DNA of 64,000 nt from Nitrospirales bacterium (lineage in GTDB: Bacteria; Nitrospirota; Nitrospiria; Nitrospirales; UBA8639), in NCBI GenBank assembly GCA_029261355.1, contig JAJDBM010000024.1:124001-188000 (forward strand), read 5' to 3'. Under the pieces are notes generated by a model. It was not told the origin of the DNA and searched no databases. It saw only the letters and a list, made by a program, of their open reading frames with translations. Both the position numbers and the translations under genes were made by a program. Below are positions 20,802-23,245 of this stretch, piece by piece; the first letter of the stretch is position 1; every line of letters begins with the position of its first letter.

Positions 20802-21800
20802 TTATCTCACTACCTCCCAAACCGAATCTACATAGTTTTTGTTAGCATCAAAAAGATGCTTCACCACTCTGCACCCAGCCTGGGTTGCCAACGATTCAAT
20901 TTCAGCTAATGTGTATTTGTAGGAATGCTCTGTTTGCATGGCTTCCCACGCGCCGAAAGAAACCTCTTTCGCTAATGCCTGAATCGTGACGACTTGCTCT
21001 CGGGTACTGTAGATCATGCTCTCGACGGCATGAGTTCTCGGATTATACTGACCTTGCTGAACATAGTGTTCTTTTTTAAAATTTGCTCCTAACTTTCGAT
21101 TCAGCACATCAAGAAGATGAAGATTGAATCGCTCGAACACGCCAGTTGCATCGTTGTAGGCCGCATACAGCACCTTGGGGGACTTCATCAGATCAAACCC
21201 GATCATGACATAGTCCCCAACATTCAAGGATTCTCGTATTTTTTGAACAAAATCCTTGGCCGCAGCTAACTCCATATTTCCAATAGTCGAACCCAGAAAG
21301 AGCACGATGTTCCGTACGGATTCCTGCTGGCTCATACCACGAAGTCCATCAAAATAATCAGCCGCGAGTCCCGTCACAGACATAGTGCCATGGGAAAACT
21401 GAGACTCCAGATTCGCGACGAGAGTCTTAATGGCACCCTCAGAAATATCAATGGGGACATATTCAAAAGTCAGCTGGCGTTGGATCCAAGGCTCAAGTAG
21501 CACTTGTGTTTTCCCTCCATCTCCAGCACCGAGCTCAATAACCCGAAACTCCGACCCGGCCAAAAGATCCGTGATCGTCTGCTGATGCGCTTGAAAGATC
21601 TCAATCTCACAATGTGCAGGATGATACCCTGGTAATTGAGTAATTTCAGTAAAGATTTCACTACCTTGGTCATCAAAGATCAACCACGACGGCAACCGTT
21701 TCGGTTGTGTGGAAAGACCTTCAAGCACGGCATGAGCAAACTGCTCATCTGACGAAGATGCGGCAACTCCAGAACGCAAATTGTGAAAGGTAAATGACAT
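20802..21800 (-). CDS. EgtD-like amino-acid N-methyltransferase
   Basis: A 332-residue SAM-dependent methyltransferase of the EgtD (histidine N-alpha trimethylation) family. The SAM loop is ELGAGDGGKT (89-98) and FLGSTIGN holds Asn175, equivalent to the histidine-binding Asn of EgtD. Glu291 and Ser293 (TEHSYKY) match the imidazole-contacting Glu and Ser. Two other substrate-site positions differ from mycobacterial EgtD as I recall it: Tyr39 is Phe42 (LIFDDQG) and Tyr56 is His60 (GYHPAH). The usual YYPTR motif becomes YHPAH. No EgtB gene is next to it. Instead a diiron oxidase-like gene is divergently placed, 383 bases away. It could be a genuine EgtD or methylate a different amino acid. Confidence 0.85.
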   Translation of the reverse strand: MSFTFHNLRSGVAASSSDEQFAHAVLEGLSTQPKRLPSWLIFDDQGSEIFTEITQLPGYHPAHCEIEIFQAHQQTITDLLAGSEFRVIELGAGDGGKTQVLLEPWIQRQLTFEYVPIDISEGAIKTLVANLESQFSHGTMSVTGLAADYFDGLRGMSQQESVRNIVLFLGSTIGNMELAAAKDFVQKIRESLNVGDYVMIGFDLMKSPKVLYAAYNDATGVFERFNLHLLDVLNRKLGANFKKEHYVQQGQYNPRTHAVESMIYSTREQVVTIQALAKEVSFGAWEAMQTEHSYKYTLAEIESLATQAGCRVVKHLFDANKNYVDSVWEVVR

Positions 21801-22183
21801 AATATTCCTTTATTCCATATCTTCTATGCAGGAAATGTTAAATAATGAGGGTTTTCAACAGCCAACAAACCCAGGTCCACATCGAACTTCAAAGGTTGGG
21901 TCGGTTCAAAAACGTGTCGCCTCCAAAGTCAGCAGATGGTGACTCTCGTTGATCAAACACGTTCAACCCTACACGATGTGAAATATAAGGCGACCCAGTA
22001 AGGGCACAGCAATTAGGCACAATCGTCCTTAGTCCATACGCCATAGAATGACCAGGCGTTGTTGGCCTCCGACGACTTTGTTCAACTGACCCAGACAACA
22101 GAGTTTGCTCACTCTAAAGTGAGCTTGTTAGACTCCTATGTAACATCCTTTGTAGAGCCTTTTCATGTGTTCATACTTTCCTC
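21801..22183. other. Intergenic region between divergent genes, with a hairpin
   Basis: The region separates the EgtD-like gene from the haem-oxygenase-like gene and should carry both promoters. At 22107-22124 GCTCACT, a four-base CTAA loop and AGTGAGC form a perfect 7-bp inverted repeat about 60 bases before the plus-strand start. It could be an operator shared by the two genes or a transcribed hairpin; no T-run follows on either strand. Confidence 0.5.
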
Positions 22184-23245
22184 ATGAATATTTCTTCATT
22201 TCAGCCCCTGACTAACGTCGATTATCGAGAAGCCCAAGAAGCCTTCACGCATCTCCTTCAGCAAGATGACCTTGACCTCTATGTCTCGGAGCATCCAGCT
22301 TGTCTTGAGCCATTCCAGCATGTCTGTCGCCTAGCGATATCCGAGGCGTTTGACAATATTGCACCGTGTCATGAGGCACATCTGTTCCTCCATCGAACTC
22401 TCTATCGTATCAACCGATTAAAGTTATTTTGGTATGACAATCTCGAAAATTACGCCAACGAACAGTCAGCCTTCCTCTTTGCTCTACGAACTGAGATTGA
22501 TACCGTCTGGCAGAAATGGGAAGCTCCGAACCTCAACATATCTGAGTTCAAACAACTCGACGTCGAGGCCGCGCTCCGAGAGCGCACGTCTGAAGATCTT
22601 GATCCTGAGCCATCCCAAACAAGCCTCTTCTTTCGCAACAAGATGTCCCTAACAGGGTACCGCCACATGTTAGCAATCACGTCGCTCGATGGATTGGTGG
22701 AAGCGAGCCAATTATCTCGAATGATTGGCGGAGTCGGGAACGAAGTGCAAGCCATGCTCACGAAAATTCTGATTGAAGAGTACGGAGGCGGGAAGCTCGC
22801 GAGAAAACATTCAACATTCTTTGCAGCTATGCTCAAGGGTTTTGGTATGGAAACGACTCCAGAAGCCTACTTTGATATCGTGCCATGGGAAGTATTGGCT
22901 AACATTAACCACAGCTTCAACATGTGCGAACGGAAACGGAACTTTTTACGGTATATTGGCAGCCTTCTCTATTTCGAAATTTCCGTCCCTGCCGCCTTCC
23001 AAAACTATAAACTCGCCGGGGAACGTCTTGGGTTAAGCGAACAGGCCATCGGCTACTGGGATGTGCACATTAAAGAAGACCTCCGACATGGCCAGTGGAT
23101 GCTCAACGAAGTCGCCCTCCCACTCATAAGCCGCTATCCCGACTCAGCATGGGAAATCGTCTGGGGCTACGATCAGCAACGATTCCTCAGCACCCGCACC
23201 AGCCACGCTCTCGCCGCCTCGGTTCAACACGTACAACAGAGCTGA
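22184..23245 (+). CDS. Haem-oxygenase-like diiron oxidase family protein
   Basis: A 353-residue all-helical protein of the Haem_oxygenas_2 ('iron-containing redox enzyme') family. Candidate metal ligands lie in the expected helices: EEYGGGKLARKH in the middle, LLYFEISVP, and IKEDLRHGQWM near the C-terminus, whose ED..H spacing is typical of the family. Members such as UndA, BesC, SznF and FlcD use an O2-reactive diiron centre for oxidative cleavage or hydroxylation in natural-product pathways. The substrate cannot be read from sequence. It is divergent from the EgtD-like methyltransferase, so a two-step conversion of a methylated amino acid is a reasonable hypothesis only. Confidence 0.8.
   Translation: MNISSFQPLTNVDYREAQEAFTHLLQQDDLDLYVSEHPACLEPFQHVCRLAISEAFDNIAPCHEAHLFLHRTLYRINRLKLFWYDNLENYANEQSAFLFALRTEIDTVWQKWEAPNLNISEFKQLDVEAALRERTSEDLDPEPSQTSLFFRNKMSLTGYRHMLAITSLDGLVEASQLSRMIGGVGNEVQAMLTKILIEEYGGGKLARKHSTFFAAMLKGFGMETTPEAYFDIVPWEVLANINHSFNMCERKRNFLRYIGSLLYFEISVPAAFQNYKLAGERLGLSEQAIGYWDVHIKEDLRHGQWMLNEVALPLISRYPDSAWEIVWGYDQQRFLSTRTSHALAASVQHVQQS

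Follow-up and report, generated by a model that had tools for sequence, protein, structure and literature searches.

A conserved divergent gene pair of Nitrospirales, encoding an EgtD-derived methyltransferase and a haem-oxygenase-like diiron enzyme, that probably makes a small molecule

EgtD (TIGR03438), the histidine methyltransferase of the ergothioneine route with structures from M. smegmatis and M. tuberculosis, contacts histidine through Tyr56, Asn166, Tyr206 and Ser284, while its Thr213 holds an imidazole-bound water and Tyr39 of the M. tuberculosis enzyme provides a van der Waals contact only (PMC8593015). In anaerobes, a metallopterin ergothioneine synthase combines a molybdopterin-oxidoreductase part with a cysteine desulfurase (PMC9516567). 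Of more than 10,000 predicted haem-oxygenase-like diiron oxidases/oxygenases (HDOs), about a dozen have been functionally validated, and SznF of the streptozotocin pathway is the HDO in which the 3H/4C (3-His/4-carboxylate) ligand set was recognised (PMC13108848). SznF is teamed with SznE, an arginine methyltransferase, and its substrate is a methylated amino acid (PMC11705231). The teaming of a methyltransferase with an HDO is already known, and what is new in the locus described here is the use of the EgtD scaffold.

The window, by which we mean the whole 64,000-nucleotide stretch that was analysed (C24:124001-188000 of a 4.63-Mb genome), carries a gene for a 332-aa SAM methyltransferase (20802-21800, minus strand) and a gene for a 353-aa HDO (22184-23245, plus strand), divergently arranged with a 383-bp gap between them; open-reading-frame and domain searches recovered both genes exactly where the initial annotation had placed them. 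The methyltransferase belongs to PF10017 (Methyltransf_33; 302.7 bits, gathering cut-off 23) and the HDO to PF14518 (101.6 bits, cut-off 28.9). The flanking genes look unrelated to the pair, with pilus N-terminal/BON, PagL-like and DUF2007 genes on one side and a PEP-CTERM gene on the other, and no egtB was found among the window neighbours of the methyltransferase, in agreement with the initial annotation. A search of the open full-text literature (paywalled papers and supplements being outside its scope) found no published description of this pair. The methyltransferase shares with EgtD its fold, SAM site, Tyr56, Asn166, Tyr206, Glu282 and Ser284 and is 31% identical to the M. smegmatis enzyme, but its partner is an HDO and not a sulfurising enzyme. 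The likeness to SznE/SznF lies in the combination of a putative amino-acid methyltransferase with an HDO carrying all seven SznF-type ligands, whereas SznE methylates the guanidine of arginine, and the window HDO lacks the cupin domain and is only about 20% identical to SznF. We propose, with moderate confidence, that the pair is a self-contained cassette whose two enzymes make an oxygenated N-methylated amino acid through alpha-N-methylation and HDO oxygenation; that the pair makes a small molecule of some kind is probable.

Conservation of the gene pair

The methyltransferase and HDO genes are a real conserved unit. Across 59 related genomes (the source genome of the window included), the HDO was present in 17 and the pair-type methyltransferase in 16, all of them within the 17, and the methyltransferase was absent from each of the 42 genomes without the HDO (Fisher P = 1.5e-13, a statistic that ignores relatedness). 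HDO identity in the other genomes of this set was 67-82% over the matched part. In the only HDO-bearing genome without the pair methyltransferase (G034, an assembly of 84% completeness), the HDO is truncated by the start of its contig, and in another genome (G022) contig ends cut both genes. Three further genomes of the family (G418, G419 and G423) and two contigs (L024 and L028) likewise have the two genes next to each other, so that divergent adjacency was directly visible in 20 of the 22 HDO-bearing genomes or contigs of the clade, G022 and G034 being broken by contig ends. The initial annotation had suggested counting this co-occurrence and had named a neighbourhood not conserved in related genomes as evidence against a joint pathway; both the counts and the adjacency computed here favour the pair.

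The distribution is patchy, and G001, a genome of the same genus as the window, has neither gene. The flanks of the pair fall into about six context types, and the only families recurring throughout are the HDO (18 of 19 sequences) and the methyltransferase (17 of 19); at the pair loci compared, no product-related gene or transporter was found conserved beside the pair. Both genes are under purifying selection (dN about 0.13-0.18, dS > 1.3, window versus four relatives), and the pairwise protein distances of the HDO and the methyltransferase correlate (Spearman 0.69). Strict co-inheritance is less certain: the two trees have just 5 of 12 splits in common, and support for the conflicting ones reaches 0.999. 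Since some of these conflicts have support above 0.9, the genes may have been exchanged between lineages, or the trees may be in error. The partial methyltransferase of G022 (143 aa) was left out of the pocket alignment as well as the selection and tree analyses. The idea that window-type HDOs are widespread was rejected after a scan of genome contigs with exact peptide patterns, which missed a more distant family and returned 12 loci, 11 titled Nitrospirota or Nitrospirales and one on a short Ignavibacteria MAG contig.

Ligand set and relatives of the diiron enzyme

Alignment with SznF placed E189, E215, H225, E281, H311, D315 and H318 of that enzyme at E173, E199, H209, E265, H295, D299 and H302 of the window HDO; we take SznF E189 to be a metal ligand like the others. 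After partial sequences shorter than 300 aa had been dropped, all seven residues were invariant in 21 sequences, in which the E-H-E-H-(D/E)-H motif is present and the seventh carboxylate, E265 at the position of SznF E281, is likewise invariant. The complete seven-ligand set thus predicts a 3H/4C diiron site. Six of the seven SznF ligands are metal-binding and essential (PMC11705231).

A profile of 16 HDO orthologues, searched against solved proteins, matched RohS (5.7e-14), SznF (8.3e-12) and HrmI (3.5e-5), all of them N-oxygenases; no other solved relative was recovered in this way. RohS, the 2-aminoimidazole N-oxygenase of azomycin biosynthesis, is the best of these matches and shares a YFE..VP motif around the seventh ligand, although it is without most of the N-terminal domain (its fold match begins at model residue 64-66) and is just 18-21% identical to the window HDO. 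By fold, the predicted HDO model (pLDDT 79) resembled HrmI most closely (Z 24.6, 326 aligned residues, 3.6 Å), followed by SznF (Z 20.8) and RohS (Z 19.6). HrmI, the lysine N6-oxygenase of hormaomycin biosynthesis, is the best whole-length fold match at 17% identity, but its ligand set is 3H/3C (PMC13108848) whereas the window HDO has the seventh carboxylate. Judged by the computed ligand set and relatives, the HDO is probably of the N-oxygenase type, adding oxygen to nitrogen. The family to which the initial annotation had assigned the divergently encoded partner is confirmed, and its nearest solved relatives are all N-oxygenases.

It is possible, if rather doubtful, that the HDO acts instead as a C-H or C-C oxidase in the manner of BesC, AetD or FlcD. 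HDO chemistry is diverse (PMC13108848), and FlcD, a carbon-excising mononuclear-iron HDO (3bjd), also aligns with the N-terminal part of the window HDO, its fold match reaching Z 18.9-19.6 over about 300 residues; as this equals the value of RohS (Z 19.6), the fold does not fix the reaction of the HDO, and the fold list may leave room for a CADD/UndA or other HDO type. The sequence-profile search, however, returned N-oxygenases alone, and E265 aligns both with SznF E281 and with the YFE motif of RohS. In FlcD, moreover, the last two ligands are replaced by Val and Arg (PMC11363339), and this mononuclear arrangement was not found in the window HDO, where D299 and H302 are present and invariant.

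Substrate pocket and origin of the methyltransferase

The pair methyltransferase is not the ergothioneine EgtD of its genome. A second PF10017 gene, located 114 kb from the pair (C24:29556-30542), reaches 335.7 bits against TIGR03438 and thus lies above the curated equivalog cut-off of 290.9, below which the window methyltransferase (274.6 bits) and all seven orthologues tested (260-274 bits; 7 of the 19 other full-length ones) remain. Upstream of the second gene and on the same strand are ABC transporter genes (an ATPase and an OpuAC-permease fusion), beyond which a divergent gene encodes a 410-aa FGE-sulfatase protein that matches the OvoA-N, SenA and EgtB models, in each case below the cut-off. 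Among the 17 HDO-bearing genomes, a canonical-type EgtD is present in 15 and a full-length EgtB-like protein was found by a wider search in 11, a count that leaves out generic sulfatase-modifying-factor hits and one fragment (G026); an EgtB-like gene lay within the examined stretch at 13 of 21 EgtD loci (L033 and L080-L099). Neither EgtB, EanB nor a metallopterin synthase was found beside the window pair, and no such family is conserved at pair loci. The pair as an ergothioneine locus was therefore rejected in view of the separate egtD near an EgtB-like gene 114 kb away. The initial annotation had held that normal EgtD activity with a separate egtB in the genome and no effect of the diiron protein would speak against a new pathway. 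Of this, half applies: the genome does have an EgtB-like gene elsewhere, but that gene is associated with another egtD.

To compare the pockets, M. smegmatis EgtD served as the reference, with numbering from the 4uy5 chain index, which we take to be native and which fits Tyr39, Tyr56, Asn166, Tyr206 and Glu282. The methyltransferase model (AlphaFold, pLDDT 83) superimposes on EgtD 4uy7 with a TM of 0.87-0.89. Tyr56, Asn166, Tyr206, Glu282 and Ser284 were kept in all 20 pair methyltransferases, and Asn175, Glu291 and Ser293 of the window protein, listed as retained in the initial annotation, indeed correspond to Asn166, Glu282 and Ser284. Its further argument, that Phe42 and His60 replace two EgtD tyrosines, is correct for Tyr39 (Phe in 15 and Tyr in 5 of the 20) and Tyr57 (His in 20/20), but the carboxylate-binding Tyr56 is conserved as Tyr59 in the window, and with this residue unchanged, and Tyr39 offering a van der Waals contact only, the argument has little force. 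The proposed change of the amino-acid site accordingly does not extend to the backbone site, which is largely intact, and is more clearly seen in the replacement of Thr213 by Phe (Phe222 in the window; 20/20), a position held by Thr (27) or Ser (3) in all 30 other EgtD-type proteins of the relatives, which represent the remaining loci and not a random sample. Lys36 is replaced by Trp and residue 283 by His, each in 20/20. Aligned in this way, the alpha-amino-acid site is retained and the side-chain site altered, so that the substrate is most likely either a histidine derivative or a different amino acid. Seven of the 30 other PF10017 proteins group apart from the M. smegmatis EgtD clade, in a second clade that has Cys at position 284.

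A phylum-wide search of 395 genomes yielded three intermediate proteins (285-323 bits; G304, G194 and G206), which pass the EgtD equivalog cut-off (311-330 bits) and keep Thr213, Tyr39 and Tyr57, unlike the pair methyltransferase. In G304 and G194 the gene adjoins one for a 1,126-1,133-aa protein that joins a molybdopterin-oxidoreductase part to a C-terminal cysteine desulfurase and is built like the metallopterin ergothioneine synthase (PMC9516567); two of the three members of this sister group are flanked in this way. The three proteins form a clade of 23 with the pair methyltransferases (support 1.0; pair clade alone 0.915). Taken together, the passed cut-off, the metallopterin-type neighbours and the joint clade make it most likely that the pair methyltransferase descends from a histidine methyltransferase of the anaerobic-ergothioneine type. 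Met252, replaced by Ser in 19 of 20 pair methyltransferases, is likewise Ser in 3/3 sister proteins, including the EgtDs beside metallopterin ergothioneine synthase-like genes; this exchange is hence not diagnostic and was rejected as a mark of a new substrate.

The main rival explanation, which we regard as doubtful, is that the methyltransferase still makes hercynine (trimethylhistidine), with the HDO as a new hercynine-oxidising partner besides EgtB, EanB and the metallopterin synthase. The retained Glu282, which presumably takes part in imidazole binding in EgtD, would suit histidine as well. Consistent with a hercynine product, the polar histidine contacts Tyr56, Asn166, Tyr206 and Ser284 (PMC8593015) are all kept together with Glu282, the sister clade consists of EgtDs of Nitrospirota from outside the order, two of three adjoining a metallopterin-desulfurase fusion that resembles the ergothioneine synthase of Caldithrix, and an imidazole is the substrate of RohS, the closest HDO in the profile search. 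It is countered by the Thr213 to Phe replacement in every pair methyltransferase and by the equivalog cut-off, failed in 8 of 8 cases tested; in addition, with a canonical-type EgtD in nearly all HDO-bearing relatives, hercynine from the pair would be redundant.

Proposed pathway and the intergenic spacer

In the cassette that we favour, the methyltransferase would be a neofunctionalised EgtD whose fold and alpha-amino and carboxylate contacts are kept while the side-chain pocket is remodelled; like EgtD, it would hold an amino acid through the carboxylate and amine groups and methylate the alpha-amine. The HDO would bind two irons in an SznF-type 3-His/4-carboxylate site, activate O2 and most likely oxygenate this same molecule at a side-chain nitrogen, either ahead of the methylation step or following it, in analogy to SznF acting on the methylarginine made by SznE. 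We infer alpha-N-methylation, N-oxygenation and a shared substrate for the two enzymes; once the amine is fully methylated, only the side chain is left for N-oxygenation, and if the HDO acted first, the methyltransferase would cap an oxidised amino acid. More specifically, and tentatively, the EgtD paralogue may make a non-histidine amino-acid betaine to which the 3H/4C diiron N-oxygenase adds an N-O group, in which case the pair would represent a new two-gene class of Nitrospirales pathway whose product, an oxidised amino-acid betaine, is encoded by just two genes. A well-supported PF10017 clade seems to have abandoned its part in ergothioneine synthesis and become tied to an O2-activating diiron enzyme, which cautions against automatic EgtD annotation, and a two-gene unit with a defined partner offers an easy system for finding a new HDO reaction.

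An HDO that acts on a substrate of its own, first or independently, and was joined only later in Nitrospirales by the methyltransferase as a tailoring enzyme appears unlikely. HDO orthologues (49-55% identity) do occur in five of eight genomes of another family of the same class, none of the eight having a PF10017 protein, so that the HDO does not always need the pair methyltransferase, a point that weighs against a strict two-step pathway. Two of these five HDO genes (L113 and L114) are directly followed by a gene for an unrelated Methyltransf_25 protein, a third has a Nudix gene in that place, and the remaining two have neither; the link between an HDO and a methyltransferase thus recurs with a different methyltransferase, yet the HDO also occurs without any. 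Against late recruitment, the pair-type methyltransferase was never seen without the HDO in the 59 relatives. Plasmids carry only distant relatives of the HDO (38 records, all below 60% identity to the window protein), and in 8 of the 18 records examined, actinobacterial HDO genes sit with genes for a HemK-like methyltransferase and a CDGSH protein. In one of these 18 (L120), a PF10017 protein without Glu282 adjoins the HemK-like/CDGSH/HDO module; a plasmid search found no close relative of it beyond itself (best other 38%). Finally, a second EgtD of the usual ergothioneine kind with an unrelated oxidase as its neighbour would account for the PF10017 membership and overall EgtD similarity but is very improbable, being contradicted by the separate egtD and EgtB-like genes, the failed equivalog cut-off and the exclusive co-occurrence with the HDO in about six flank contexts.

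The spacer measures 111-127 bp in 16 relatives versus 383 bp in the window, because a repeat of about 265 bp (21819-22090, limits approximate) sits between the methyltransferase start and a conserved block. This insertion, absent in the 16 relatives, belongs to an interspersed repeat family with copies in four other places of the genome (contigs C74, C10, C38 and C14; 72-78% identity, matching parts of 21831-22048). Alignment of 17 intergenic regions, restricted to loci with both gene starts, identified the promoter-like block 5' of the HDO gene (22104-22134, plus strand; TTGmTC, 17-18 nt, TAGAAT-like). Most relatives' spacers carry TTTGMTC, 11-12 nt and GCTTGCTAGAATG, with the motif ending 48-64 bp before the HDO ATG, and 2 of the 17 spacers fall outside the loose motif pattern. 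By its sequence, the motif resembles the -35 and -10 elements of a promoter for the HDO gene; the second hexamer is weaker in the window copy, and a promoter consensus scan of the window did not list the block. The hairpin that the initial annotation had placed between two promoters is present as a perfect 7-bp palindrome (22107-22113/22118-22124) inside the promoter-like block, with a DNA fold of -7 kcal/mol (z -2.7, equalled by 3 of 200 shuffles), but the palindrome is imperfect in the relatives, for which reason a conserved operator was rejected. A terminator was rejected as well, and the terminator-like hits at 22057-22076 fall within the insertion. The strict block pattern gave 11 hits in the 59 genomes, and since only one of them lies outside the pair, a wider regulon was discarded; the other 10 are all located between the two genes.

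Intergenic repeat and a match labelled outside Nitrospirota

Between the start of the EgtD-like methyltransferase gene (PF10017) and the conserved promoter block (22104-22134) 5' of the haem-oxygenase-like diiron oxidase (HDO) gene, we observed an inserted repeat of ~265 bp (approximately window 21819-22090), copies of which, at 72-78% identity, were detected on contigs C74, C10, C38 and C14 of the same genome. This repeat may have altered control of the methyltransferase in the window strain. In the genome-contig scan, the only HDO match labelled outside Nitrospirota was located on L024, a contig of 3.1 kb from a MAG labelled Ignavibacteria. 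This contig is probably misbinned; its methyltransferase was placed inside the Nitrospirales proteins in the tree.

Other partners of HDO genes

At two loci from another family of the same class, the HDO orthologue was directly followed by a Methyltransf_25 protein (L113:6940-8812 and L114:7436-9304), and both genomes were without PF10017. Among plasmid HDO records, a module comprising HDO, a CDGSH iron-sulfur protein and a HemK-like methyltransferase recurred in 8 of the 18 examined (L120, L123, L124, L125, L127, L129, L130 and L131), these eight being from Streptomycetaceae plasmids. On the plasmid of Streptomyces sp. NBC_01237 (L120:5776-8827), a distant HDO and the other two module members adjoined a PF10017 protein carrying Gly instead of Glu282 and Ser instead of Thr213 (M. 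smegmatis EgtD numbering), possibly an independent pairing of HDO with an EgtD-like protein. A small Rieske protein followed HDO in records L117, L119, L122 and L128, hosted by Azospirillum, Gloeothece, Pantoea and Methylobacterium, with an ATP-grasp gene at three of these four loci and an L11-type methyltransferase at two.

EgtD-type proteins and EgtB in relatives

Two genomes of family f4 (G038 and G044) possessed a canonical-type EgtD in addition to the pair, and our search of HDO-bearing genomes for a full-length EgtB-like protein found none in either. At two loci in Nitrospirota outside the order, EgtD adjoined a molybdopterin-cysteine desulfurase fusion resembling metallopterin ergothioneine synthase (L160:4894-9327 and L161:4730-9122). 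Seven PF10017 proteins of relatives (L050, L051, L052, L055, L056, L059 and L062) formed a clade separate from M. smegmatis EgtD, and these are apparently the same seven, out of 30 canonical-type proteins, that carry Cys at position 284. Where loci of this clade were taken with wider flanks (L095, L096 and L098), an EgtB-like gene was found nearby in all three.
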